Assembly (NCBI GenBank): GCA_944326425.1
Contig: CALVDX010000004.1
Coordinates: 1-64,000 of the forward strand
Source of the DNA: Candidatus Gastranaerophilales bacterium
GTDB taxonomy: Bacteria; Cyanobacteriota; Vampirovibrionia; Gastranaerophilales; Gastranaerophilaceae
DNA length: 64,000 bases
Direction of reading: 5' to 3'
Shown here one piece after another: positions 10,147 through 50,572 of this stretch; position 1 is the first letter of the stretch, and each line of letters opens with the position of its first letter. The position numbers and the translations under genes are program-made. The notes under the pieces were generated by a model that saw only the letters and a list, made by a program, of their open reading frames with translations, searched no databases and was not told where the DNA came from.

Positions 10147-10163
10147 TTATTTTTAATAATCAA

Positions 10164-10195
10164 GGCGGGGCGGTGAAATATTTCACCGCCCCGCC
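10164..10195 (+). terminator. metK terminator
   Basis: A perfect 15-base GC-rich stem (GGCGGGGCGGTGAAA with its complement) and a two-base loop directly after metK. The following tract is only moderately T-rich. Confidence 0.8.
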
Positions 10196-10287
10196 CTTTG
10201 CTTTATATTTATTCTGTTCGGGTGGATTTTCTATTCCCCGAACGGCCTATAAAAGCTTAAGTTTTGTAAAATTTTACTCTGTCCCCC

Positions 10288-10315
10288 TTGTAATATTATC
10301 TTGAAGTGATATAAC
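10288..10315 (+). promoter_or_regulatory. Promoter of the AAA operon
   Basis: TTGTAA, a 16-base spacer and TATAAC, about 45 bases before the first ATG of the four-gene operon; the next ribosome binding site is AAGGAG. Confidence 0.55.
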
Positions 10316-10359
10316 GATAGTGCAACTTGGTGGCATTAGCGTATATAAAGGAGTGAAAT

Positions 10360-11691
10360 ATGAATATATCACCAATCAGACCGGTAATAACAGGACAAAA
10401 TGTTTATCGTGCAGGTAATAATGGCGGATTAAACAACAGGAACAAGAATGTAAATACTTCTTCTCCGGCATTTGGGGCAGTAATAGGGAATGCTTCGGAT
10501 TTAAAAATCCGGCTGGATTTTTATGTCAAAATGGCAAAAGATATTACTCCGGATGAAATACGGAATCTGATTAAGATGACCGATGCGAGTATTATCAGTA
10601 TATTAAACCAGAGAAACAGCAAACTGGCGGAAATAAGAGAGCTGCCCAAACTTATCCAAAAATTCAAGAAGGGCGCGGTAAATAAAATTGAAGAAGAATT
10701 TGTTTCCCGGTATATTGCCCTGAACAATGAGAAGAAAAAGCTGCTTGCTGAACTTGAAAAACGGCTGGAAGATATAAAACATATTGCGGATAATATGCAA
10801 ACGGAGATTACCCAGAGCGGCAGGGGAACGGTATCTGTATCTAAGGCCCTGCGCGCCGGTGAACAGGCAAAATACGCGGCATACTCGCAGTACAAAGGTT
10901 TTGATTCAATTGCGGGTTATGAGTATGAAAAGGCTGTTCTGGACCGCTTTTTCATATCAGAGATAAAGAAAGAACGTGCGGGGCAGGAGGCTAATGTCCC
11001 CGGGTCTGTACTCTTCTTCGGACCTCAGGGCAACGGCAAAACCTCGTTTGCCAAGGCGTTTGCACAGGAGGCGGATGCGAGAGTAGAGTATATTGATACA
11101 AATAGTACGCGCGGTAAAGCAAAAAATCGTTTTGATGTTTTTCTTGATGAATTGCTTAACGAAGCGAAACTGGCTGAAGAACATTATCAAAAAGGGGGAA
11201 ACAATCAGAGAACGATATTAATATTGGATGAGTTTGATAATGTTGCGGGTAAAAATTCACCTATCACAAAGGAGCTGGAAAAGTTCCTTCAGAAGTGTTC
11301 TGACAAGTATCATTGTACGGTGTTTGCAACCACAAATTATCCGGAAAGAATAGCAATGAATCTTAAGAAAGAAAATTCTGCTTTCCCCTACAGGGTTGCG
11401 CTCGACCCGCCGTCTGCGGCTGACAAAGCCGGAGTGCTGGAGTTCTATACGAGAGGACGGGAAGTAAAAGCGCTTGATATCCCGGCGGCGGTTAGAAAAC
11501 TGGAGGAAAAAGAAACTGAGACAAATGCACTTTTTAATAATTCTTACATTAAAAAAATGGCATTAAAATCCGGCAGCCAGGAAGAACTTATCCGGTTAAT
11601 TGAAAAGCTAAAACCGAGTATAACTAAGGATAAACTAGATGTATATCACGAGACGGTAAAACTCCTGACCGAAGGCAAAGTTCTTTTATAG
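10360..11691 (+). CDS. AAA+ ATPase with N-terminal F-tag
   Basis: A 443-residue ATPase. Residues 1-45 are a disordered leader containing SPAFGAVIG, the tag shared with other proteins here. Residues ~60-170 are a helical coiled-coil-like domain. The AAA+ core follows: Walker A GPQGNGKT at 221-228, Walker B ILILDEFD ending at 293 with Asp290 and Glu291, and sensor 1 TTNYPE with Asn326. These are all intact, so it should hydrolyse ATP. The substrate is unknown. It leads an operon whose three other genes encode relatives with broken ATP sites. The family looks closest to classical FtsH/katanin-like AAA modules, but no protease or zinc site is attached. Confidence 0.85.
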   Translation: MNISPIRPVITGQNVYRAGNNGGLNNRNKNVNTSSPAFGAVIGNASDLKIRLDFYVKMAKDITPDEIRNLIKMTDASIISILNQRNSKLAEIRELPKLIQKFKKGAVNKIEEEFVSRYIALNNEKKKLLAELEKRLEDIKHIADNMQTEITQSGRGTVSVSKALRAGEQAKYAAYSQYKGFDSIAGYEYEKAVLDRFFISEIKKERAGQEANVPGSVLFFGPQGNGKTSFAKAFAQEADARVEYIDTNSTRGKAKNRFDVFLDELLNEAKLAEEHYQKGGNNQRTILILDEFDNVAGKNSPITKELEKFLQKCSDKYHCTVFATTNYPERIAMNLKKENSAFPYRVALDPPSAADKAGVLEFYTRGREVKALDIPAAVRKLEEKETETNALFNNSYIKKMALKSGSQEELIRLIEKLKPSITKDKLDVYHETVKLLTEGKVLL

Positions 11692-11699
11692 AGGCTGTT

Positions 11700-12791
11700 A
11701 TGACAGGTATTTATCACACCCATGACCCGATCAATTTTCATTCTGTTAACCCGCAGACGCAGGGCATGTCTGCTGTGTCCGGAGAGCGCCGGAGCAGCGG
11801 CGCAAAAGTGTACACCGCCGGTGCGCTTGCAGGCGGGGTAATCGGCACGGGAGCCGGATACCTGACGGGCAAGGTCAGGGGTGACAGCTTTATTAAGAGC
11901 AAAGACCTTGAGGGAAAGATATTAAAACTGTGTGAAGAGCTGGAGAAGAATAACGAAACCCTGAAAAACCTGAATGCCCGGAATGCCGGACTGGAGAAGG
12001 GTTATTATAAATCGGCGGAAGAATACTTTAGCCGTATGATAAAACTGGTAGAACCGAAACGGCAGGAGATAACGGAACTGATGATATCAAAAGTTATCAA
12101 CGAAGTAGAGAAACCGAACTGTTTTCTTATTTACGGCAAGAACAAAGAGTATTGTGAAGCGGGGCTTGATTTTATAAAAATGAACTTATGCCTTGGCGAG
12201 AAGGTCTATGCAAATGAACAGGTGCTGAACTGTGATGATGATCTGGTAGGGGCATTGGAACGTCTGGAGTCAAACTATCAAAAAACAAAGCTGTATAATC
12301 TTCTTCATATCAGGGATTTTGATCTTTTAATCAATCCCCGAACCTCGGATGATGAAACAATCGGTGCAATGAAATCAATAATGGGCGACTGTGCGGAGGT
12401 GTTTCATACTACCATCCTGTTCACGACAACAAATCCTGAAGAGCTTGACAGGATAGCGATGGCATCTCATCGTGTAAGGAGTGTATCCTTTGAGGATATA
12501 GACGGGAGCAAACAGGAGCCGGGTTTTAGCGAAATGCGGAAACGTTATATAGAGACAAAAGAGAAGTATGACGTGTATGAAAAAGAGCGCAGCGTCCTGT
12601 CTGAGCGTCATGTTAAGTTATTGACGGAAGCAAGACAGCTGGAAGCAGAGTACGCGGAGGATATAAAGAAAGTAAAGGGCATGAAAAAAAGGGGCGGTCT
12701 GGCAGGCGCTGTTATCGGTCTGGCAGCGGGGTTAGGTCTGGCGGCACTGATAGTACGTGCAGGCAGAAAGGAGAAGTCGGCTAATGGTTAG
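11700..12791 (+). CDS. Degenerate AAA-like protein with glycine-zipper segments (paralogue 1)
   Basis: A 363-residue relative of the upstream ATPase that has lost the ATP site. The P-loop position reads LIYGKNKEYCEAG, without GKT, and the Walker B position reads LLHIRDFD instead of LLDEFD. The sensor-1-like TTTNPEEL is kept. The N-terminal tag is PINFHSVN. Two glycine-rich hydrophobic stretches (AGALAGGVIGTGAGYLTG near 41-58 and LAGAVIGLAAGLGLAAL near the C-terminus) look like membrane-inserting glycine zippers; a coiled coil lies between the first one and the core. It starts eight bases after the ATPase gene. It is almost identical to the next gene. Confidence 0.8.
   Translation: MTGIYHTHDPINFHSVNPQTQGMSAVSGERRSSGAKVYTAGALAGGVIGTGAGYLTGKVRGDSFIKSKDLEGKILKLCEELEKNNETLKNLNARNAGLEKGYYKSAEEYFSRMIKLVEPKRQEITELMISKVINEVEKPNCFLIYGKNKEYCEAGLDFIKMNLCLGEKVYANEQVLNCDDDLVGALERLESNYQKTKLYNLLHIRDFDLLINPRTSDDETIGAMKSIMGDCAEVFHTTILFTTTNPEELDRIAMASHRVRSVSFEDIDGSKQEPGFSEMRKRYIETKEKYDVYEKERSVLSERHVKLLTEARQLEAEYAEDIKKVKGMKKRGGLAGAVIGLAAGLGLAALIVRAGRKEKSANG
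11741..12748 (+). repeat. Tandem duplication, unit 1
   Basis: A 1,008-base block repeated head-to-tail at 12816-13823, offset 1,075 bases, about 95 percent identical by eye including silent positions. It covers nearly all of the two degenerate AAA genes. Confidence 0.9.
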
Positions 12792-13899
12792 TAATGTTTC
12801 TCCGGTAAGCTTTTCTTCTGTTAACCCGCAGACGCAGAGCGCGTCTGCCGCGTCCGGAGAGCGCCGGAGCAGCGGAGCAAAAGTGTACACCGCCGGTGCG
12901 CTTGCAGGCGGGGTACTCGGCACGGGAGCCGGATACCTGACGGGCAAGGTCAGGGGTGACAGCTTTATTAAGAGCAAAGACCTTGAGGGAAAGATATTAA
13001 AACTGTGTGAAGAGCTGGAGAAGAATAACGAAACCCTGAAAAACCTGAATGCCCGGAATGCCGGACTGGAGAAGGGTTATTATAAATCGGCGGAAGAATA
13101 CTTTAGCCGTATGATAAAACTGGTAGAACCGAAACGGCAGGAGATAACGGAACTGATGATATCAAAAGTTATCAACGAAGTAGAGAAACCGAACTGTTTT
13201 CTTATCTACGGAAAGAACAAAGAGTACTGTGAAGCGGGACTTGATTTTATAAAAATGAGCTTATGCCTTGGCGAGAAGGTCTATGCAAATGAACAGGTGC
13301 TGAACTGTGATGATGATCTGGTAGGGGCATTAAAAGAGCTTAGGTCAAATTATCAAAAAACAAAGTTGTATAATCTTCTTCATATTAGGGATTTTGATCT
13401 TTTAATCAATCCCCGAACCTCGGATGATGAAACAATCGGCGCAATGAAATCAATAATGGGTGACTGTTCAAACCGGTATCATACCACCATCCTGTTCACG
13501 ACAACAAATCCTGAAGAGCTTGATGATATAGCTATGGAGCCGCATCGTGTAGAGAGTGTATCCTTTGAGGATATAGACGGGAGCAAACAGGAGCCGGGGT
13601 TTAGCGGGGTGCGGAGGCGGTATATAGAGACAAAAGAGAAGTATGACGTGTATGAAAAAGAGCGCAGCGTCCTGTCTGAGCGTCATGTTAAGTTATTGAC
13701 GGAAGCAAGGCAGCTGGAAGCGGAGTACTCGGAGGATATAAAGAAAGTAAAGGGCATGAAAAAAAGGGGCGGTCTGGCCGGCGCTGTTATCGGTCTGGCA
13801 GCGGGGTTAGGTCTGGCGGCACTTATGATAAAAAGGAATAAAAATAAACAAATAATAAACGGAATACAGGCAGGAAAAAAGAAAGAGGTAGAAAAATGA
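12784..13899 (+). CDS. Degenerate AAA-like protein with glycine-zipper segments (paralogue 2)
   Basis: A 371-residue copy of the preceding protein, with the same lost Walker motifs, glycine zippers and coiled coil. The start is the ATG giving MVSNVSPVSFSSVN, after AAAGGAG; it overlaps the stop of paralogue 1 by eight bases, so translation is probably coupled. The two copies differ mainly at the ends and in one internal patch, where this copy reads GDCSNRYHTT and DDIAMEPHRVE and so matches the downstream 876-residue protein rather than its twin. It ends in a lysine-rich tail (KRNKNKQ, GKKKEVEK) whose last codons overlap the next start as ATGA. Confidence 0.8.
   Translation: MVSNVSPVSFSSVNPQTQSASAASGERRSSGAKVYTAGALAGGVLGTGAGYLTGKVRGDSFIKSKDLEGKILKLCEELEKNNETLKNLNARNAGLEKGYYKSAEEYFSRMIKLVEPKRQEITELMISKVINEVEKPNCFLIYGKNKEYCEAGLDFIKMSLCLGEKVYANEQVLNCDDDLVGALKELRSNYQKTKLYNLLHIRDFDLLINPRTSDDETIGAMKSIMGDCSNRYHTTILFTTTNPEELDDIAMEPHRVESVSFEDIDGSKQEPGFSGVRRRYIETKEKYDVYEKERSVLSERHVKLLTEARQLEAEYSEDIKKVKGMKKRGGLAGAVIGLAAGLGLAALMIKRNKNKQIINGIQAGKKKEVEK
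12816..13823 (+). repeat. Tandem duplication, unit 2
   Basis: Second copy of the block at 11741-12748. Sequence flanking the two blocks is unrelated, which marks the duplication ends sharply. Confidence 0.9.
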
Positions 13900-16526
13900 T
13901 TACCAGAATCACAAGTCTTAATTTGAACCCAAAAACTATTCAAAAAAATGAAAACAAGCAGCAGGGCAGTATCGGCAGGCAGCCTGCTTTGAATCCGAAA
14001 AACGGATATGATAGTTTTGAACGCGGCGCGGCGCCGGCGTTTACCGGTAAAACCAGTATAAAAAATTATGAGCAGATATTGAGTTCTCTAAACAGCGACT
14101 TAAACACCGTCAAAAACAGTTTGACTAAATATGCTGAAAGTAAACTGCCGTCAACAACCTGGAAACGGGCCTCTCTTGCTATTGCTACACTGGGGCTCTC
14201 GGAAGGGATTGCACATCTGGCTGCCAAAAGACAGGTTAACAGAGAAACAGGTGCAATTCTGGATAATATGAGAGAAAATCAGGATGCGCAGAACGGGATT
14301 ATTGCTTCCGATATTTTAGATACGGATTTGTCAACCCAGTGGATTCTTGAAAAGATTGAACTTGAAGCCAATCATGCACTTGCCGTGGATAAAATAAAAC
14401 GCGAACAGATAGTTCCTTTATTTATTTCTACGGTACTAAACAAAACAGAAGTACCTAACTGTCTGATGATTTCCTGCGGGACTGAGAATATTAATAATGA
14501 ACTCATTGAGTGGACCAAGGCGGAAACCCCATGCGAAGTTGTGACACTCAACGATGATGATGATATTGTCAGTGCTCTAAAGGCGGCAAAAAAACATTAT
14601 CAGCAGACCGGAGAGCGGACGCTTATGCATATAAAGAACTTTGATACTCTGATTAACCCTAAAACCGCGGACGAGGAAACAATCGGGGCAATGAAAGGAA
14701 TAATGGGGGATTGTGCAAACCGGTATTATACCACTATTCTCTTCTCTTCACAGAAGCCTGATGAGCTTGATGATATAGCTATGGAACCGCACAGGGTAGA
14801 GCGTATAGAAGGCAATCTCAAGACGATGGAGGAGCAGCTGAGAGATATTGCGTTTAATCAAATAAACGAGCTTGATTATACAAAAAGTGACATCTGGCTC
14901 TGTCATGACGGACACAGGATCAATCCGTCCGAATTGCAGGAGCTGATAAAAGAAACAGGACTCTATAACGAAATCCCCCCTATAGGCAAAGAGTTCTCCA
15001 TGGAGGATATGCTCAAAATAAGAACAAGAATGGCAGAGGTTATTCCGGAAATTGTTAAAAACAACATCGCAAACGCTAAACTCCCGCGCGAAGTAAATAC
15101 AACCCCCGCAAAATTCTATATAAAATCAAAAGACGGAACGATAAAAGAATATAACGGGTATAAGCATACAGTAAGATTCCTGTCGCCTATGGAATTGAAA
15201 GGAACTTTTGTCGGATGGGAGCCTATTCCATACAATAAGTTTACTGCAAGTATTATAAAAAAGCCATATCCGAGAACCCTGCTCAAAAAAGATTATTTTG
15301 ATTTTCAACAATCTTACTTCACGATGTCCAAGGATTTTGACGCTCCGGATTTTGTATTATGGGCGAATATCCTGAAAAATTCAAAGCCTTTTAATGAAAC
15401 ATCTCCGGTTCCAGACTTTGCTTCTGATTATTATTCCCAAAAATGGCAAGTTGAGCGCAGAAAAGCTTATGACAGCAGCAATGCTGATAATTATATTTCT
15501 CCTGCAGCTGCGGATGTTTTACTGCAGATTACCGATAAAATTTTTAATGAAAACAAAGATAAGTATAAAACAGGAATTCCTGAAATAGATTTTAATACAG
15601 ATGTTTATAATTCACCGTTCTCTCTCAGGTCAATGCTTGTCCCTGTCGAATATAACGAACGCGAAAGTGTTGAATATCCCAAAACGGATGATAAGTACAA
15701 AAAGTACGCTGATGAAGATTTGATGGGGTTTGCTAAAGACGACATACTGAAATTAAAATACTATGATATAACCTACGCTCTGAGCAAAGATGCCCTGCCG
15801 CAGGGAACGGAGCTTTTAGCTAAAGCGTTTTATTATAATATTTTCCCGGATAATCCGGATACCGGAAAATTCGTATACACTCCTGACAAACAAAAACATA
15901 TTGAAAAAGAGAACGATATTTTACGTATTCTGCCGGCTGAATCCCGTGAAGAAGCAGAAAGAATTTTTGCACTCGAAAAACTAAAAGATAAAAAATGGTG
16001 TGCTGATAATCCTGTCCCGGCATTAAAAGAATTAATTTTTGCCGCAGGGCTTGATAAAGAAGGGATAGAATTAAGCGATAAACCGGATAGCGATGAAATG
16101 TCAGCAGCACTCAGGGCTGTACGCGATAATCTTATCAAAGTAGCAATGAATGATATGGAAAATATCAATTATTTGAAACGTTATCATGAGTTAAGGGATA
16201 TCAAATGGAGTAATAGGGCTGTTCAGACTACACGTTTTCAGAACCTGCCCGCCCTTATGTTAATTGCCGATGAGCATATAGCAGATAAGGACGGAATACC
16301 GGAATCTCGAATTGGAAAAGGGAACTTTAGCACAGTGGCTAATACTTTTTCTGATAAAGACTGGTCTGCTACCTGGCTTGATGAAGAAAACATGCTCAGA
16401 CTGTCACAAGATTTAGAGCACTACGAGTTCCTTAGTGTTTGTTCCGATGCACTGAGCTGTATAACAAGAAATCCCGCCTGGAAGTACAAATTCGGGTATT
16501 TATCGCCAACGTATAGTCACTTATAA
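13896..16526 (+). CDS. Large protein with degenerate AAA-like domain and novel C-terminal region
   Basis: An 876-residue protein. The leader to ~55 is disordered and holds the tag PAFTGKTS. Residues ~60-120 are helical with a weakly hydrophobic stretch. Residues ~180-310 align with the degenerate AAA domain of the two upstream paralogues (LMISCGTENINN at the P-loop, LMHIKNFDTLINP at Walker B, ETIGAMKGIMGDC, DDIAMEPHRVE), so it too should not hydrolyse ATP. The remaining ~560 residues (for example VPDFASDYYSQKWQVERRK) match nothing I know and carry no evident catalytic motif. The ATG overlaps the preceding stop (ATGA), and a terminator follows, so this is the last gene of the operon. Confidence 0.8.
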   Translation: MITRITSLNLNPKTIQKNENKQQGSIGRQPALNPKNGYDSFERGAAPAFTGKTSIKNYEQILSSLNSDLNTVKNSLTKYAESKLPSTTWKRASLAIATLGLSEGIAHLAAKRQVNRETGAILDNMRENQDAQNGIIASDILDTDLSTQWILEKIELEANHALAVDKIKREQIVPLFISTVLNKTEVPNCLMISCGTENINNELIEWTKAETPCEVVTLNDDDDIVSALKAAKKHYQQTGERTLMHIKNFDTLINPKTADEETIGAMKGIMGDCANRYYTTILFSSQKPDELDDIAMEPHRVERIEGNLKTMEEQLRDIAFNQINELDYTKSDIWLCHDGHRINPSELQELIKETGLYNEIPPIGKEFSMEDMLKIRTRMAEVIPEIVKNNIANAKLPREVNTTPAKFYIKSKDGTIKEYNGYKHTVRFLSPMELKGTFVGWEPIPYNKFTASIIKKPYPRTLLKKDYFDFQQSYFTMSKDFDAPDFVLWANILKNSKPFNETSPVPDFASDYYSQKWQVERRKAYDSSNADNYISPAAADVLLQITDKIFNENKDKYKTGIPEIDFNTDVYNSPFSLRSMLVPVEYNERESVEYPKTDDKYKKYADEDLMGFAKDDILKLKYYDITYALSKDALPQGTELLAKAFYYNIFPDNPDTGKFVYTPDKQKHIEKENDILRILPAESREEAERIFALEKLKDKKWCADNPVPALKELIFAAGLDKEGIELSDKPDSDEMSAALRAVRDNLIKVAMNDMENINYLKRYHELRDIKWSNRAVQTTRFQNLPALMLIADEHIADKDGIPESRIGKGNFSTVANTFSDKDWSATWLDEENMLRLSQDLEHYEFLSVCSDALSCITRNPAWKYKFGYLSPTYSHL

Positions 16527-16557
16527 AAATACGGAGTTTAACTCCGTATTTTTTTTA
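16526..16557 (+). terminator. Terminator of the AAA operon
   Basis: AAAATACGGAGTT pairs with AACTCCGTATTTT and is followed by a run of T; it overlaps the end of the 876-residue gene. Confidence 0.85.
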
Positions 16558-16672
16558 TAACAGATATTCCCTTATTTATGATTAACAAATATTAACTTCT
16601 TTGAGATTAAACAAAGATTTGTTACCATGTTTGTAGTATTATAGCTAAGTAGTATTTAATGGGATATTTTTG

Positions 16673-19600
16673 ATGAGTGAGTTAAACAATCTTTCGGATA
16701 TAAAAGAGAACTTTGATACAATAAAATCGCTTTTGAATTCAATAAGAGCGCAGGATGTACTTAATGCCGGCGATATGAACAAGCTTCTTAATGTTATTAA
16801 TAACAAGCTTGATAAAATTGATCAGGAAGATAATCTTGAATTGATGAATTCCGCAATCTCTGCTATGCGTCAGTCAATTGACGAGCGCCACAGTGTTCTT
16901 GTGTCAAAGTTTTCAACCATTGAATCACTATTTAGCAATATTTTAAAAAACAGTGTGGACTCGCTTAAGTCGTCCGAAATAAAAGAACTCTTTGATATTA
17001 TTGCAACAAATTTGTCCGTTTTTTCAAGAGAAGTTGTTTCCCAAAAAGATACTCTTACTGATATCATACTTAGAATTGAGGCCCTGCGCTCAGATGACAG
17101 TTCTACGGGGGCTATAATTTCTAATCTTGATGTACTAAAAAAAGAGCTTGAACGTTTTAATAACGGGTTTGAAAGCATTATTGTCAACCTCGGCGATAAT
17201 TTTGGAACAATTGTACGCGCTCTGGATGATATTAGAAACAGGTGCGCAGATAACCACTATGATAAAGATTTTGAAAATCTTTATATGACTTCAAACTCCA
17301 TCCTTGCTTCCATTCAGGTGCTTGATAAAAAATCCGTTCAGCTGGAAGAAACCCTTGCTAATATTTTAGCAAAATGTGAAAGCAAGAGTTCGGATGAACG
17401 TTTATCAGAACTGCTTTTGCAAAATAAAGAAATTTATAACTCTATAGGTGAACTGGCTGTTAATTGCAATGTAGAGCCGCTGTATCAAAAAATCGATAAT
17501 GCATCTGCACTTATCAGCGGATTGAAAGATATTCTGCAAAATGTTGATACTGATACAACTAACGAATATCTCTCTAAGCTCTCAAAAATTGAAACCGCCA
17601 TAAATAAAGCGCTGGATGAAAGCGATTTTAATAAAATCCGTATAGATTTGGAAAGTGCGCTCAACCAGATTGCAAATACGGTAAGTCTTTCACAAAACGA
17701 CTTGTACGTTATAAAAAATGATTTGGAAACAGTTTCATCAAGTATTAAGGCGCTCGATATTCACATCAATTTCCAAAATATTCAAAGCTCTTTAACTAAA
17801 AGTGAAGTTAATATCAAAACGTATATTAGTGATTTATCAAATAAGTTCTCACAGCTGTCAGAATTGACTTTTCAACGGACAATTGAAGATATCAAACAAA
17901 AAGTAGATGCTCTCGCTTCTGAAATGAAAACAACAGCAGGGGAAAATCTCGAAGCGTTATCCGGTTCATTGATTGGTTTGAAATCCAGTATTTCTGATAT
18001 AGAATCGGCTGCAGGAACAGCAAATAACATACTGTTTAAAAATGTTACTGAAAGATTAGCCGCTCTTGAAAATACTCTGGCAGGACTTTTAAATAATCAG
18101 TCTATTGCATTAAACAGTACCGGTAAACAAATGACAGAGCTTTCCGGAAATGTTAATCTTAAACTCGATACTTTAAGTGCTGATATTACCGGTGCAAAAG
18201 AAGGGATGGAAAGTTTCCAAGGCAAGCTGGAGGCCCTTCTTAACCTTGATTTACAGGAAACGTTTGAACTTTTGAAAACAGGTATTATTAACGCGCAGAC
18301 GGAACTGTCTAACGGAATAAAAGACTCTCTGGTTTCAGGGGCAAATGAGCAGTTTGAAAAAATAAATCTTGAATTTGAAAATACTAAAAAACAGCTTGAA
18401 AATTGTAATAATAATTTAACATCAATATACAAAGACGGGTTATCAGAGCTTAGAAGTCTTCTAAACGGAATTACTTCTTCATTAATTGATATTGTGTCTT
18501 ATGTGAGTGTTACGGAGAATAAAAACAACAATATCGAGTTTGAAAAAAGATTTACTGATATTGAATACTCACTAAAGGATTATTCTGCCGATGCAGTTGA
18601 AAAAGTAAATGCTTACATAAAAGACTGTATCGACAAAATAAATACGAGGTTAACTAATTACGATGCTACATCTCAAAGCCATTTCCAAAATTTAGCGACA
18701 AAAATAGAAAATAATAGTACTTTTGTACGTGAAGATATTAAAAAATCTTATGAGGAGCTGGCTGCTCTTAGAAATGAAATTATTGAGTTTAAAGAATACG
18801 TAATCGAAGATTTGAACAATAATCCTATGAAAGCGGAGCTTATTGACAGATTTTCCGGGGTGAAAAATTCTATACTTGATAAATTGGCCGAGTTTGAATT
18901 GAAGTTTTCCAGACGTCATCAGGAAAGCTGGGAAGAGCTTCAGGATTTGAACAGTAGTATTCTGCAAAAAATAGAAGCCATACCGGAAGTTAACAGAAGT
19001 ATATTAACAGATGTCCGTTCGGAATTGGTCAATGGAATAAATGAAGCTGTTGACAATTGTATGGGGAATGCAATTGAGGAAATCAAGCTTTTTGTCGAAA
19101 GAACTTCCGGAACAGGTAATACAGAATTAGATTTGTTTAAAGACGAAAGCCGTAAAATTTTTGAACAGCTGAAAAGCGATGTTTCCAGAATTACTGAAGC
19201 TATTAACCTTGACGATAAGCTTGATGCTGTTCAAGACAGGCTTATTACGACTTTAAGCAGTGAAATTGACAAGTCTTTCGCTTCTATGCTCTCTGCTGTG
19301 CAAAGTAAAATTAACTTCAACACGGAGCCTGAAGATAAAAATGAAATGATTGACATACTCTTTTCACAAGAGAAAAAAATCAAGTCAGATATTGCAACCC
19401 AAATAGAAACTCTTATTAAAGAGATGGAGAATTTGAACGGGCAGGCAAATACTAATAAAGCTGCAATCATAAACCGCCTTGAAGAATTGGAAGCAGGAAT
19501 AAAACGGGCGCTTGAACGCAACGAATTAAGCCAGTCTGAAATTACTGAAAAATTAGAGTTGTTTGGTAATACCTTGTTTAAGCTGGCCGGTAACGGAGGA

Positions 19601-22600
19601 GTTTCAATTAAAGATGCAGTATCGCGTCTTGATGAGCTAGCTCAAAAGATTACAGCCGTTTCTTCCCAGGATAGAATGCCGCAGGATGCTTTAGTAGAAA
19701 AAATCGAAAAATTGGGTGTAGATATCACAAAACTATTGACTCAAGAGGCGGCTTTAAAAACGGAAGAAACTCTTGCAGAACTTCTAGAAAAGTCCGAAAA
19801 AAATTCTACTGCATTGTTTAGTGCATTGCAGCAATTAAGTGCTAATAATGCAAAATATGCAGCGGATATTAATGACTCTCTCTCTTTAATAACATCAGGG
19901 CTTGTTAATAATGATGACGATAAAATAATATCCGAAATTCAGTTTGTAAAGTCGATGTTGGACAACCAACTCAGAGCTATAGATGATATAAATATTATTT
20001 GTAATGATATTTCTGATAAAAATAATCACGAGGATATATCAACTTTGCTAAATAATTTCAAAACGGAAGTTATTACACAAATGTTGACAATATTTAATCA
20101 AATATCATTCTCTACTGAACAGGAAGAAATAATTAACTTTATAAAACTTCAGCAGGATGAGTTAAGAAATTATATTCATCAGCTTGTATCCTCTTTTGAA
20201 AATAAATCTGCAGGGGAAGATAAAGTTATATCAGAAATTAAGGACAGAACAGATAATCTATCTTCGCAAATTTTAAGTATAAAAGACAGTATAGACATAA
20301 TTTCCGGTAGTGATAATAACGATAAATATACGTTATTAAATGTAGAAGCTGATTTGGCCAAGCTCCGTTTAGGATTAGGGCACTTAAAAGACAATTTAGC
20401 GTCATCTTCCAAGCAAAGTGAAATTGGTGAGGCTGTTTCTGTATTGAATAATTCTATCAATCTTTTACGTTCTGAGCTTCCAGGAGAAGCAATTGAATAT
20501 TTACGTGCGCAAGTTGATAAGTTAATTGAAAATGTTAAGTTGAATGATGCTATTGCCGCAAATATTATTAATATAAAAGATAAATTGGAATCAATTGATA
20601 ATGCACGAGAATTATTCAGAGCAGATGTTGAGCGGGCATTTAATAATGTTATAACAACAATAGAAAAAACTTCTGACTTTAAATCTTTAAGAGAAACCTT
20701 AAAATCAGGGTTAGATGGTTTATATAACAGTATTTCCGAAAAATTGGATAACAACACCCAAAATGCTGAACTTAACGCTATGCTTGCTGCTATTATGGCA
20801 AAACAGGATGCTAGTCTTGCCCATATAGTTGCTCATATTGGAGCAATTAATAATCTGGATGTTATAAATAAGCAAGATGAACTTACGCAAAAAATTCTTT
20901 CTCAAATAGCAGGCGTTAATAATTCTATTATGAATAAACAGGATGAGCAATTTGGTCAGCTTGTAGCACGCTTGAATTTGATTAATAGTATTGATGCTGT
21001 CACTGCGCAGGAGGAAAGCGCGGAACGGATTATTTCTAAAATAGAAGCTATTAATAATTCTGATGTTTTAGCAAAGCAGGATGAAAATTTACAACATATT
21101 ATCTCCCGTTTAGACAGAATTGATATAAGTAATTCTGATAAATTGGACGGAAATATTGAACAAATAATATCACGTTTAAATCAGATAAATATAGATGAGC
21201 TTATAGATAAACAGGATAGAAATCTGTTGCAGATTATTTCACGCCTTGAGAATATAAATAATTCGGATATTCTTGATAAGCAAGACAGGAATTTTGAAGA
21301 AATTGTATCACGCATAGATAAACTCAACAATGCAGGGGAATTATTAAATTCTTTAAAATCGGATATAATAACCCAGCTAATAAATGCTTTTAATCAAATT
21401 TCTTTTGAGGCTGAAACAATTGAATTAAAAGCAGAAATAGAAGATGTCCATAACGATTTAAAAGAAGCAGTTAATTCCATTTCCGACAAAGTTGAGAAAA
21501 TAGCTTCTACCCAGTCTGAATTTGTAGAAGATTATACAAATTCATTAAATCGTATTGAAGATAGTTTAGAAAATAATCATATATTCCAGCTTAAAGCAAT
21601 TTCTGAAGTTGCTGTAAATACGAAGGAATTCGCTGAAAAATTTGTAACAGAAAATCAGGTAGATAAAGAACTTTTATCTGATATATTTGCAAACGGCAAA
21701 GCTGTTGCAGAAGCTGTTGATCTAGTCAAGGCTCAAATAAAATCAATTCAGGAATCAGATGAAAATTCTTCACAATATTCACTCTCTGATATAGAACAAG
21801 ATTTAACTAAATTACGTCTGATTGTATCAGAAATCAAGTCTAATCAAAACAGACGTGAACTGGAAACAGTTATCGGGTCACTTGATAATGTTATTAATCA
21901 AATTCAGGAACTCAAAGAGTTTATCCCCGTAGAAGATATAAGCAACATAAATGAAAATACTTCGGAAGTTCTTGATATATTAGAAGGATTAGTTCTTGAT
22001 ATTAAAAATATTCATTCGACACAGGATGATATAATTGGTTATGTTCAAGATGAAAGTAAATCAGTTGTTTCGGAGTTAAGAGCCTCTGAGGGAAATATTA
22101 AATCCGATGTTCAAATGTCTCTGGATGATTTTGCTAATGAGATTAAAGAATTTAGCAATGATACATTCTCTTCTAAACTCAGCAGTGTAAAAAATGAAAT
22201 TATAACCCAGTTATTAGGAGTTATAAGCCAAATTTCCTTTGTTGAAGAACAAGAAGAAATTATTTCTCATATTGAAGGTATTCAATCTCAAATAAATATT
22301 TTAAGTTCAGGTGAGCCTGATACAATAGGCACGTATAGTTTACAGGATATAGAAACAGATGTTGCGAAGCTAAGGTTGACACTTGAAGAAATCAAAAATC
22401 AGGGCCGAGGGGAAGAAATTGATGATTTGGTCCAAAGTTTAGCTTCTGCTTCACAGACATTAGAATTTTTAAAAACGGAACTGCCTAATCATGAAATAAG
22501 CGAGGTTCGTGATGAACTTGAAAAAATTGCTAATGATATTATTAGTATAAGTATAAGGACAAATAAGCTTTTAATATCATCAGATGAGTCTTATAAGAAT

Positions 22601-23293
22601 TTAAAAGAAAATATAGATGACTTCCGCAATATAATGGACGGAGTGGACGAGCGGACTAAAAATCTCTATGAAGAAGTAGGGATGGACAAAATTGAATCAC
22701 AGGTTACTTCTATCAGAAACATTGTAGGTCGTCAGGAAGTTACAAATCAAGCTTTTAATGAGGTATTTGCGTACCTTGCAGAATGGATTGATGCAACAGG
22801 TGAAAAACTGGGCTATATTACAGATAAACTTAATAATACGGATGATATTAATGAAATTAAGTTATCATTAGAGGACATCAAAAACGCTACTTCTGTAAAA
22901 TTTGAAATAGATGCACAGTCTGACAAAATTGAAGCAATGGAATCAAAGCTTAATGTCATAATAGAGTCCTTAGAGCCTACTTTCCAGAATCAGCAAGAGA
23001 GGATGCAGGTTCTGGAAAGAAAAGTTAACAGGATAGTTGAATTTTTTGAACCTGCTTTTACAAAACAACAGGAAAGAATAAATAAGTTGGAAACATTGTT
23101 GGATAAAATCCTTGATGTGGTATCATCTGATAGTGGATATGGTGAAGCAGTCAATAAACTTGATAAAATATCGGATATAATTGCTGCTAAGGATGATACC
23201 CAGCTTGTTAAAAAGCTTGCAAGCTTTGAAAGACAAATAAACAAGTTGAACAAGAATGTTGAGAAACTAACAGCTTATGTTGACGAAAAGTAA
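16673..23293 (+). CDS. Giant coiled-coil repeat protein (2206 residues)
   Basis: Almost entirely helical and acidic, with no signal peptide, membrane segment or enzyme motif. Leucine/isoleucine heptads run through the whole length. A super-repeat occurs three times: an (E/D)(V/I)ITQ..FNQISF-type block near residues 1131, 1563 and 1841, each followed by a YxLxxIExDxxKLRL block near 1219, 1701 and 1887. Between ~1390 and 1560 there are shorter units (KQDxNLxxIISRLxxIN). Such proteins usually act as filaments, tethers or chromosome- or division-linked scaffolds. I chose ATG at 16673 over an adjacent in-frame TTG. It overlaps glcD by 17 bases. Confidence 0.85.
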   Translation: MSELNNLSDIKENFDTIKSLLNSIRAQDVLNAGDMNKLLNVINNKLDKIDQEDNLELMNSAISAMRQSIDERHSVLVSKFSTIESLFSNILKNSVDSLKSSEIKELFDIIATNLSVFSREVVSQKDTLTDIILRIEALRSDDSSTGAIISNLDVLKKELERFNNGFESIIVNLGDNFGTIVRALDDIRNRCADNHYDKDFENLYMTSNSILASIQVLDKKSVQLEETLANILAKCESKSSDERLSELLLQNKEIYNSIGELAVNCNVEPLYQKIDNASALISGLKDILQNVDTDTTNEYLSKLSKIETAINKALDESDFNKIRIDLESALNQIANTVSLSQNDLYVIKNDLETVSSSIKALDIHINFQNIQSSLTKSEVNIKTYISDLSNKFSQLSELTFQRTIEDIKQKVDALASEMKTTAGENLEALSGSLIGLKSSISDIESAAGTANNILFKNVTERLAALENTLAGLLNNQSIALNSTGKQMTELSGNVNLKLDTLSADITGAKEGMESFQGKLEALLNLDLQETFELLKTGIINAQTELSNGIKDSLVSGANEQFEKINLEFENTKKQLENCNNNLTSIYKDGLSELRSLLNGITSSLIDIVSYVSVTENKNNNIEFEKRFTDIEYSLKDYSADAVEKVNAYIKDCIDKINTRLTNYDATSQSHFQNLATKIENNSTFVREDIKKSYEELAALRNEIIEFKEYVIEDLNNNPMKAELIDRFSGVKNSILDKLAEFELKFSRRHQESWEELQDLNSSILQKIEAIPEVNRSILTDVRSELVNGINEAVDNCMGNAIEEIKLFVERTSGTGNTELDLFKDESRKIFEQLKSDVSRITEAINLDDKLDAVQDRLITTLSSEIDKSFASMLSAVQSKINFNTEPEDKNEMIDILFSQEKKIKSDIATQIETLIKEMENLNGQANTNKAAIINRLEELEAGIKRALERNELSQSEITEKLELFGNTLFKLAGNGGVSIKDAVSRLDELAQKITAVSSQDRMPQDALVEKIEKLGVDITKLLTQEAALKTEETLAELLEKSEKNSTALFSALQQLSANNAKYAADINDSLSLITSGLVNNDDDKIISEIQFVKSMLDNQLRAIDDINIICNDISDKNNHEDISTLLNNFKTEVITQMLTIFNQISFSTEQEEIINFIKLQQDELRNYIHQLVSSFENKSAGEDKVISEIKDRTDNLSSQILSIKDSIDIISGSDNNDKYTLLNVEADLAKLRLGLGHLKDNLASSSKQSEIGEAVSVLNNSINLLRSELPGEAIEYLRAQVDKLIENVKLNDAIAANIINIKDKLESIDNARELFRADVERAFNNVITTIEKTSDFKSLRETLKSGLDGLYNSISEKLDNNTQNAELNAMLAAIMAKQDASLAHIVAHIGAINNLDVINKQDELTQKILSQIAGVNNSIMNKQDEQFGQLVARLNLINSIDAVTAQEESAERIISKIEAINNSDVLAKQDENLQHIISRLDRIDISNSDKLDGNIEQIISRLNQINIDELIDKQDRNLLQIISRLENINNSDILDKQDRNFEEIVSRIDKLNNAGELLNSLKSDIITQLINAFNQISFEAETIELKAEIEDVHNDLKEAVNSISDKVEKIASTQSEFVEDYTNSLNRIEDSLENNHIFQLKAISEVAVNTKEFAEKFVTENQVDKELLSDIFANGKAVAEAVDLVKAQIKSIQESDENSSQYSLSDIEQDLTKLRLIVSEIKSNQNRRELETVIGSLDNVINQIQELKEFIPVEDISNINENTSEVLDILEGLVLDIKNIHSTQDDIIGYVQDESKSVVSELRASEGNIKSDVQMSLDDFANEIKEFSNDTFSSKLSSVKNEIITQLLGVISQISFVEEQEEIISHIEGIQSQINILSSGEPDTIGTYSLQDIETDVAKLRLTLEEIKNQGRGEEIDDLVQSLASASQTLEFLKTELPNHEISEVRDELEKIANDIISISIRTNKLLISSDESYKNLKENIDDFRNIMDGVDERTKNLYEEVGMDKIESQVTSIRNIVGRQEVTNQAFNEVFAYLAEWIDATGEKLGYITDKLNNTDDINEIKLSLEDIKNATSVKFEIDAQSDKIEAMESKLNVIIESLEPTFQNQQERMQVLERKVNRIVEFFEPAFTKQQERINKLETLLDKILDVVSSDSGYGEAVNKLDKISDIIAAKDDTQLVKKLASFERQINKLNKNVEKLTAYVDEK

Positions 23294-48558: not shown

Positions 48559-50487
48559 TTATGTTTTACTCTTGAACCATAGTTCGGGATTGTAGTCTTT
48601 TTGCAGTGTAAATAGCATCCCGGGATAATATGCAAGCAAGTATGTCATAACTGGTATCCCTGCAATACTTTTCAGGTTTCCAATGTCTTTTATCCGTGAA
48701 TTATAATAAGAAATATCCTTTTCCCCGTGAAGCATCTCATATACATTTGAGAAATCTATAAATTCATCCATAATAGTGTCAAAAAGACGGAGCGGGGGTA
48801 AAGACCCGTCAAAAATAGCACATCCTCCAATTTCTTCCAGTTTGGCAAGAGTTTTGATTTTTGAAGCCGCAAAGCTGGCTTTGCCTCCTATTTTTGTAAG
48901 GCATCCTAAATCTTCTACGGTTGTCTCTGTAAAATCCGCATCCCCGCCGATAGTTTTTAGATTTTTTAGTGTTTTTACTTTACAATTCCAGAGGACAGCA
49001 TTTCCGCCAATGTATTTTAAATTTCTTAAATCCTCAACATTAGTAGTATCTAAACATAAATTACCGCCGACGTATTCAAGTTCGCCAAGTGTTGTTATAC
49101 TCATAACTTCGTAAAAATCGGCATTCCCGCCTACATATTTGAGTTTCCCCAAATCTTCCAACGGTGTTTTTTCAAAGTCCGCATTCCCCCCGATATACTT
49201 AAGCTTCTCCAGACTTTTAATTTTTGAGTATTCAAAATTAGCGTCGCCCCCTATATATTCAAGATTTCCAAGTGATGTAATATTAGAGTCCTGAATATCA
49301 AGAAATCCGCCGACATGTTTCAGTGCGCCGGGAGTCGTCATCTCTGATTGTCTAAAGACGACATTACCTTTTATACTGGTAATTCTGCTGAATAAATCAC
49401 TTTCTTTTAATCCAAACTCCTTAAGTGTAAAACCTTCAGGCAATATATAATGAGAAAGTGTAATGTTTCCGTCTTTGTCCTGCTCGGGATTGAAATCCAG
49501 ACAATCCAATACTTTTATAATATCGCATTTACCGGTTTTTGCTATATCTTCTTTTATTTCTTTTATTATTTTTCGGGCTTTTTCCGCCGCATCAATTTCA
49601 TGCTGTGCATTTTTGTTTAAGCTGTATCCGCCCAGCGTTATATATTCTTTTACATTATCCAGATAAGTAACAGGTATTGTACTGTTGTTGTATTCGCCCT
49701 GTATTTCTTGAATGGCATCATCTTTAAACCTGATTCCGATTTTTGGTTTTCCGTTTACCATATAAATATGAAAATCTCCCTGTGACAGGTATGGAGCAGC
49801 ATTGAGTGATTTAGTACACCAGTTTTTATGTGACAAGATTTTTAACTTTTCCACATTAGATTCAAAGTTCTCAGAATCATTTTGCTTAGATGGGATAATA
49901 ACCCATTCTGTTTGTGTTCGTGCAGCGTTAATGTTTTTATTATTGCAGGATGCTTTTAAAAATGCTTCGTATTCTTTATTAAAATTAATATTTGATCTTT
50001 GCACTCCTTGGAGCCGGTTTTCTATATCGCTTATTGTATCTGCAAGAACTCCTTTATTTAATAAGGGTAACAATTTGTCATTTTTTGATGAAAGCTCTGC
50101 CGTAATTGAGGAGAGAATAAATAGAGCAATCGGTGCGGTATAAACTTCGTTTTCTTTTAGAATGTAATCAGACCACTCTTTAAGCTGTCTTTGTCTTAAG
50201 TCTCCTGTCACTAATCTGCGTCCGCTGTAATCTTTCCCTAATATAATCTCAATTTCTTTTTTAGCCCATTTCTGAAAATCTGATATAGTTCTGAATTTCT
50301 CAATCGGTGCTTTGAATTTTTCTACCACAACAAAATCAATCCCCTTAAAATCAAGTTTTTTCATTGCAGAAAAATTGACTGTATCGGCAGGATGTATGTT
50401 ATAAGAATGTAAATTGTCCTTATATTGGTTTTTACAGGTTTTCTGTTTGTTATAAAACGGATTATATATACAGGGATTGATTTTCAT
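48559..50487 (-). CDS. IGG-repeat (LRR-like) protein with N-terminal F-tag
   Basis: A 642-residue protein. The N-terminus contains VNFSAMKKLDFKG, the tag seen across this window. Residues ~180-300 form a globular domain (LSHKNWCTKSLNAAPYL, GDFHIYMVNGKPKIGIRF, IQEIQGEYNNS). Residues ~380-560 carry about eight repeats of 22 residues with the pattern L(K/E)YIGGxAxFxxxxIxxLxx, a solenoid like leucine-rich repeats. No signal peptide. Such proteins in other bacteria often bind proteins or act as effectors. The start chosen (MKINPCIYN) has no clear ribosome binding site, so it is uncertain. Confidence 0.75.
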   Translation of the reverse strand: MKINPCIYNPFYNKQKTCKNQYKDNLHSYNIHPADTVNFSAMKKLDFKGIDFVVVEKFKAPIEKFRTISDFQKWAKKEIEIILGKDYSGRRLVTGDLRQRQLKEWSDYILKENEVYTAPIALFILSSITAELSSKNDKLLPLLNKGVLADTISDIENRLQGVQRSNINFNKEYEAFLKASCNNKNINAARTQTEWVIIPSKQNDSENFESNVEKLKILSHKNWCTKSLNAAPYLSQGDFHIYMVNGKPKIGIRFKDDAIQEIQGEYNNSTIPVTYLDNVKEYITLGGYSLNKNAQHEIDAAEKARKIIKEIKEDIAKTGKCDIIKVLDCLDFNPEQDKDGNITLSHYILPEGFTLKEFGLKESDLFSRITSIKGNVVFRQSEMTTPGALKHVGGFLDIQDSNITSLGNLEYIGGDANFEYSKIKSLEKLKYIGGNADFEKTPLEDLGKLKYVGGNADFYEVMSITTLGELEYVGGNLCLDTTNVEDLRNLKYIGGNAVLWNCKVKTLKNLKTIGGDADFTETTVEDLGCLTKIGGKASFAASKIKTLAKLEEIGGCAIFDGSLPPLRLFDTIMDEFIDFSNVYEMLHGEKDISYYNSRIKDIGNLKSIAGIPVMTYLLAYYPGMLFTLQKDYNPELWFKSKT

Positions 50488-50572
50488 GACATTAGTTTTA
50501 AATTCAAAAAGAAAAAATTTTGCTACTGTATATTTCAAAATTTACAAATCTTAAAGTTGATTAATAATTAAA

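Follow-up and report, generated by a model that had tools for sequence, protein, structure and literature searches.

What does an ATPase of the AAA+ superfamily do in an operon with three relatives that lack the Walker motifs? The question is raised by four genes at 10360-16526 of the window, by which we mean the whole stretch analyzed: 64,000 nucleotides (nt) from the start of contig CALVDX010000004.1 (assembly GCA_944326425.1) of a Candidatus Gastranaerophilales bacterium. We confirmed the operon, with coordinates, frames and motifs correct. All four genes lie on the + strand, and successive genes are spaced by a gap of 8 nt, an overlap of 8 nt and an overlap of 4 nt, in agreement with a preliminary description in which they were said to overlap or nearly touch. 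We consider it quite likely that they encode a composite AAA+ ATPase, where dead subunits (those without Walker motifs), often anchored in the membrane, supply the arginine finger in trans to an ATPase that has none.

Active and Walker-less AAA+ subunits

Gene 1 (10360..11691, +) encodes protein 1, an active classical-type AAA+ ATPase of 443 amino acids (aa) that matches Pfam AAA at E 1.2e-14. It keeps Walker A (GPQGNGKT, residues 221-228, 11020..11043, +), Walker B with its Glu (acidic pair D290 E291 in ILILDEFD, 11227..11232, +), the sensor 1 Asn (Asn326 in ATTN, 11335..11337, +) and the lid, having lost the arginine fingers; Walker A, Walker B (as LDEFD) and sensor 1 had been recognized from the start, and both the sequence and Pfam agree with that reading. 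Against the PDB, the active-family profile finds p97/VCP at 2.6e-46, and its best 60 matches are classical AAA proteins, with no torsin among them. A PHROGs clamp-loader model also matches protein 1 (1.8e-14), more weakly than the p97 kinship. Protein 1 as a query against genome contigs gave nothing, and its AlphaFold model, which was poor (mean predicted local distance difference test score, pLDDT, 61), was left unused.

Proteins 2, 3 and 4 match nothing in Pfam and NCBIfam, and plain BLAST of gene 1 against gene 2 detects no more than a weak similarity near Walker B (2e-4), so that profiles were needed to test for a common core. We sampled loci around relatives within Gastranaerophilales, first 20 and then another 60, and used profile A2 for dead domains only and profile A3 for active domains only, the active type being defined by a complete Walker A. 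A2 and A3 align with each other (hhalign 99.8%, E 5e-30), and A2 finds AFG2A (3.2e-6), Msp1 (2.7e-5) and also Vps4 in the PDB. A dead-type relative of 717 aa (L139) passes the Pfam AAA cut-off from profile position 16, directly after Walker A. The AlphaFold model of protein 3 has a confident core at about residues 75-330 (pLDDT mostly 80-95, about 90) that corresponds to the AAA+ large subdomain and matches p97 D1 (Foldseek 1.6e-5; Z 14.7, 2.6 A over 150 residues). It has no lid: after the core, a long helix runs into the hydrophobic C-terminal segment. An unrelated fold for genes 2-4 had been named beforehand as the finding that would speak against the preliminary description, and the profiles, the PDB matches and the similarity of the model to p97 all place them within AAA+ instead.

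The losses are systematic. The lid region aligns in 100/106 active versus 13/111 dead proteins. In about 124 dead-type domains Walker A is unrecognizable and the Walker B Glu is replaced by N, D or G, and of 108 active-type domains, 104 keep the Walker B Glu and 102 the sensor 1 Asn. Neither Walker motif is found in proteins 2-4, and the alignment shows that the loss of both at parallel positions, as had been proposed, is real and in register with the motifs of protein 1. Proteins 2-4 are thus Walker-less, lid-less AAA+ domains. A tree of active and dead domains (124 columns) hints at an old split and perhaps one later separate loss (L161), with support too weak to count origins. Besides, three loci (L157, L160 and L161) contain arrays of three or four AAA+ genes, where active members and a Walker-less member alike have a canonical RSGRF finger; here ATPase activity may have been lost separately and later.

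Gene 2 (11700..12791, +) encodes 363 aa with hydrophobic glycine-rich segments at the N- and C-ends. Gene 3 (12784..13899, +) is its near-copy, of 371 aa from ATG 12784 or 380 aa from GTG 12757, the ATG being preferable. The two are 90% identical, which means that the operon encodes two kinds of dead partner, one of them duplicated; of the three pseudo-ATPases counted previously, the three Walker-less genes stand and the number of kinds does not. The ratio of nonsynonymous to synonymous substitution rates (dN/dS) between genes 2 and 3 is 0.37. Their differences (11700-12791 vs 12784-13899) are patchy, with almost none over ~360 nt, and cluster at both ends and around residues 180-290, the arginine-finger region; this pattern suggests copies homogenized by gene conversion, with a possibly diverging interface. 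Gene 4 (13896..16526, +) encodes 876 aa, with a Walker-less AAA+ domain at about residues 165-305 (52% identity to protein 3 over 145 aa) plus ~560 residues without known fold. The latter had been described as of unknown sequence, and no family is detectable: neither this C-terminal part nor its 43% identical relative has a Pfam match, and it recurs in one congener only.

The active and dead genes travel together. An active AAA+ gene accompanies the dead-type gene in 72/78 loci; the remaining six loci reach a contig end, lie on a short contig or have a truncated active gene next to the dead one. A family gene and its closest family neighbor share a strand in 91/107 cases, with a gap or overlap of <=50 nt in 73; frequent layouts are active-dead-dead, dead-active-dead and dead-active. 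Loci were selected for their resemblance to the dead domain, which makes the frequency of dead genes uninformative, and it is the steady adjoining active gene that is informative. Recurrence of the gene order in related genomes was the other check set on the preliminary description, and the arrangement of active and dead genes does recur across Gastranaerophilales, in those 72 loci.

The arginine of the dead subunits

We found that the sole invariant column in 22 aligned dead domains is the arginine of [QE]PHRV. In profile alignment this arginine coincides with the arginine finger of classical AAA proteins such as AFG2 and Msp1 (motif RPGR(F)). In the operon it corresponds to Arg258 of protein 2 (ASHRVRS, 12471..12473, +; by profile alignment), Arg264 of protein 3 numbered from GTG 12757 (EPHRVES, 13546..13548, +; in the invariant column) and Arg300 of protein 4 (EPHRVER, 14793..14795, +; by alignment to protein 3 and the dead domains). 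In protein 1, KENSAFPYRVALDPP aligned to GRFDREVDIGIPD of p97 puts Ala341 (11380..11382, +) at the first finger position and a Tyr at the second, and no second region of homology of the GRFDR type is present.

The same division is seen in the wider family. Arginine is present in 65/75 non-redundant dead domains, where it is the second most conserved column, versus 14/55 non-redundant active domains, so that 41/55 of the latter are without it (Fisher p 8e-13, with shared ancestry not corrected for). Relatives of protein 1 mostly have I, V, L, K or a gap at the finger column, while the Walker B Glu is kept in 53/55 of the active domains, together with Walker A and sensor 1. A purely structural or folding need for the arginine is unlikely, because active domains of the same fold mostly do without it. 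This arginine, the lid loss and the near-identity of genes 2 and 3 had all been overlooked in the preliminary description. Relatives in eight loci (L091, L108, L122, L124, L125, L131, L132 and L134) contain three tandem dead AAA+ domains after a membrane-helix-like segment, and in most of these proteins the arginine is kept in the last domain only.

Hydrophobic segments are also biased toward the dead subunits: 45/111 dead proteins have membrane-helix-like segments, as against 6/106 active ones. In the operon, strongly hydrophobic C-terminal glycine-zipper helices occur in protein 2 (12690..12755, +; LAGAVIGLAAGLGLAALIV, KD19 2.40) and protein 3 (13765..13830, +; KD 2.3), and the N-terminal glycine-zipper segments of both are moderately hydrophobic (KD 1.1). 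These are the two proteins for which glycine zippers at both ends had been noted.

Proposed arginine finger donation, its alternatives and its counterparts

The preliminary description took the operon for a hetero-oligomeric machine with one working and several structural subunits, perhaps membrane bound. The fold, the conserved gene order and the membrane-helix-like segments support such a machine well, but the dead subunits probably do more than lend passive structure; they are probably arginine-finger donors that activate the ATPase. We infer the following. Protein 1 would bind ATP without an arginine finger of its own and, the finger being lost, should be inactive or weak when alone. Proteins 2, 3 and 4, without Walker A, Walker B and lid, would be unable to bind ATP in the usual way, and their conserved arginine would fit into the ATP site of the neighboring protein 1 and complete it. 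A ring or partial ring with alternating ATPase and dead subunits would be the natural assembly. Proteins 2 and 3 may hold it at the membrane through their hydrophobic helices, protein 4 may contribute its large extra domain, perhaps as an adaptor or cargo binder, and the complex would then remodel a protein substrate.

Several observations weigh against this proposal. Finger loss in the ATPase is common, not universal: arginine stands at the finger column in 14/55 non-redundant active domains and in 16/71 adjacent active genes. The active-side alignment is gappy at this column, and the arginine was put in register by profile alignment and by its position directly ahead of strand beta 5. Clear membrane-helix-like segments are found in at least one dead subunit of only 43/76 loci, and protein 4 has none, its best segment being borderline (KD 1.33). 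Additionally, a simple 3:3 ring does not follow directly from three partners per ATPase.

A possible explanation of another kind is that the dead subunits are purely structural or act as adaptors, their arginine serving a local salt bridge or substrate binding, while protein 1 completes its own sites by another residue, such as the R/K in FPxR/K. Indeed, active subunits commonly have, four positions further along, a basic residue (FPYRVALDPP, FPIKMSIDPP) that could reach a neighbor's site, and some active members keep the canonical finger. In this sense, with about a quarter of the active relatives having the finger arginine and this second basic residue being common, some members may depend less on partners. 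However, the arginine is nearly the most conserved residue of the dead subunits, where the normally most conserved Walker residues have drifted, profile alignment sets it on the finger, and active subunits of the same fold do without it; we therefore regard a purely structural role as unlikely. Decay, in which genes 2-4 would be functionless duplicates of an AAA+ gene, might account for the lost Walker motifs and for genes 2 and 3 as recent or homogenized copies, but not for frames that are open across the order, one near-invariant residue, a dN/dS of 0.37 between the copies or an active gene linked in essentially every locus. Judged by this conservation, decay appears close to refuted and has hardly any probability left.

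The question of role is a separate one. The island is accessory, some genomes hold several copies and the dead subunits bear very different extra regions, which would suit a conflict or defense system, that is, a membrane-tethered AAA+ sensor or effector with fast-changing extra domains; IetA models of PADLOC also touch the P-loop of protein 1 (E 2.5e-7, 28 residues). But the PADLOC matches are limited to generic AAA+ parts, proteins 2-4 are unmatched and a full-length match to proteins of IetAS or another PADLOC system was not obtained. Furthermore, neither the operon nor ten large relatives showed a recognizable nuclease, protease or toxin domain, and no copies were found in phages, plasmids or viral contigs. 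A defense role thus seems quite improbable to us, and it is compatible with the composite-ATPase mechanism, as it concerns the role only.

Finger donation by a dead partner has a precedent. The preliminary description knew of no system like this one, but Torsin with LAP1/LULL1 in eukaryotes has this design. LAP1 has an AAA+ domain without nucleotide motifs or C-terminal domain; it also has a membrane helix, and its residue at the finger position, R563, is strictly conserved. Torsin has no finger; mutation of R563 lowers ATPase activity, and the proposed assembly is a ring of alternating subunits, (LAP1-Torsin)3 (PMC4358337). The likeness lies in a finger-less ATPase and a partner without Walker motifs or lid that has a strictly conserved finger arginine (PMC4358337, PMC4999309), and it may extend to the membrane helix of the partner, given the strongly hydrophobic helices of proteins 2 and 3 and the membrane-helix-like segments among their relatives; in our family the partner without motifs or lid keeps the arginine, and the ATPase is without finger in this operon and in most, not all, relatives. 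Unlike Torsin, which is compared with ClpA/ClpB of the HSP100 type, protein 1 is a p97-like classical AAA. The partners also differ from LAP1 in being clear homologues of the ATPase, encoded in one operon, often of two or three kinds and with large extra domains, and no sequence kinship with LAP1 was detected. On this evidence the system would operate in the manner of that pair, with a dead AAA+ partner that turns on the finger-less ATPase and positions it at a membrane. Given a p97-like ATPase, partners paralogous to it and no LAP1 kinship, we do not class the system as a Torsin-LAP1 member; the design seems to have arisen in bacteria independently, with a classical AAA ATPase as its base. 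The broader proposition, that Gastranaerophilales evolved a family of the Torsin-LAP1 type independently of animals, whose finger-less ATPases function solely in company with dead and often membrane-anchored partners, and that they multiplied it and refitted it with different partner domains so that partners choose place and cargo for the same motor, we hold in even balance.

Other known systems are more distant in design. The best sequence and fold matches of both active and dead domains are p97/Cdc48, AFG2, Msp1 and Vps4, which differ in being homo-oligomers (or double rings) with complete sites. Pex1 and Pex6 both have two AAA domains, with complete motifs in D2, unlike the system described here. 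Clamp loaders (RFC, and the DnaX complex with delta and delta') and ORC1/4/5 are hetero-oligomeric AAA+ assemblies, in which some inactive subunits lend an arginine to a neighbor. These differ in belonging to another AAA+ clade, with collar domains and a function at the DNA clamp or origin (for the ORC motor module, see PMC5291709), and we saw no such features in the present system, where no search aimed at a collar was made. Pex1/Pex6 shares with our proposal an alternating heterohexamer of classical AAA ATPases of unequal activity, tied to the membrane (PMC4490564). In the open-license literature searched, no bacterial activator pair of this kind was found, and no paper joining Gastranaerophilales and AAA+.

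If the proposal of finger donation is correct, ATPase activation by a finger-lending dead partner would not be peculiar to the animal nuclear envelope but would have arisen again in bacteria, on another AAA+ clade and in dozens of natural variants. A eukaryotic mechanism linked to disease could then be studied in a simple bacterial model, and there would be a search signature for further pairs (Walker loss, lid loss and one kept arginine beside a finger-less ATPase) and a first functional handle on unannotated genes of an uncultured gut lineage.

Distribution and neighborhood of the operon

Scanning 383 Gastranaerophilales genomes with A2 gave matches in 179 at E 1e-3, a count that includes active relatives, and several copies are carried by some genomes. 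Outside Gastranaerophilales there is almost nothing that matches at E 1e-8; the class sample gave a single such genome, from another family.

The operon is an accessory island, extending over 10147..16572 by junction comparison with congeners. A hairpin at 10164-10195, after metK, bounds the operon on the upstream side, and a terminator-like hairpin with a T run (AATACGGAGTTTAACTCCGTATT, then Ts; 16528..16557, +) follows gene 4. The whole operon lies between metK and a coiled-coil gene both in the window and in one congener (G005), whose contigs are interrupted within the operon, at the place expected for the near-identical copies; in 5/7 congeners metK and the coiled-coil gene adjoin with a short spacer, the operon being absent at the junction. 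The coiled-coil gene (16670-23293) encodes a predicted protein of 2207 aa, with no known family in a Pfam search. We considered it as part of the system and rejected it, since it is kept near metK in 7/7 genomes of the genus, five of them without the operon. A mobile-element origin of the island was also rejected, with no match in viral contigs, phages or plasmids.

The preliminary description also gave all four proteins an N-terminal phenylalanine tag. The tag is clear in protein 1 (SPAFGA) and protein 4 (APAFTGK) and weak in proteins 2 and 3 (NFHS, SFSS), and it is not specific to this system. An element of about MKI..I followed within ~60 residues by [IV]SFKG, SFTG or AFGA is common in Gastranaerophilales: in the proteins of L082-L161 it occurs at the N-terminus of 48/102 active, 39/106 dead and 45/407 other proteins, versus 1-15 occurrences in internal or C-terminal stretches. 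In the window it is found in the proteins at 10360-11691, 13896-16526 and 48559-50538. By its appearance it is a tag for targeting or recognition that many proteins share, rather than one peculiar to this system.

None of the recurrent neighbor genes of the family loci pointed to a function. In one subgroup (L086, L088, L104, L105, L107, L110, L126, L127, L142, L145-L148, L151-L154 and others), a second, larger AAA+ protein of 700-810 aa, encoded downstream or in divergent orientation, stands beside the active/dead pair, as does a tagged protein of ~400-450 aa, which in L147 has EF hands. In another locus (L083, 2574-6167), a 1197-aa HEAT-repeat protein is encoded directly 3' of two dead subunits.

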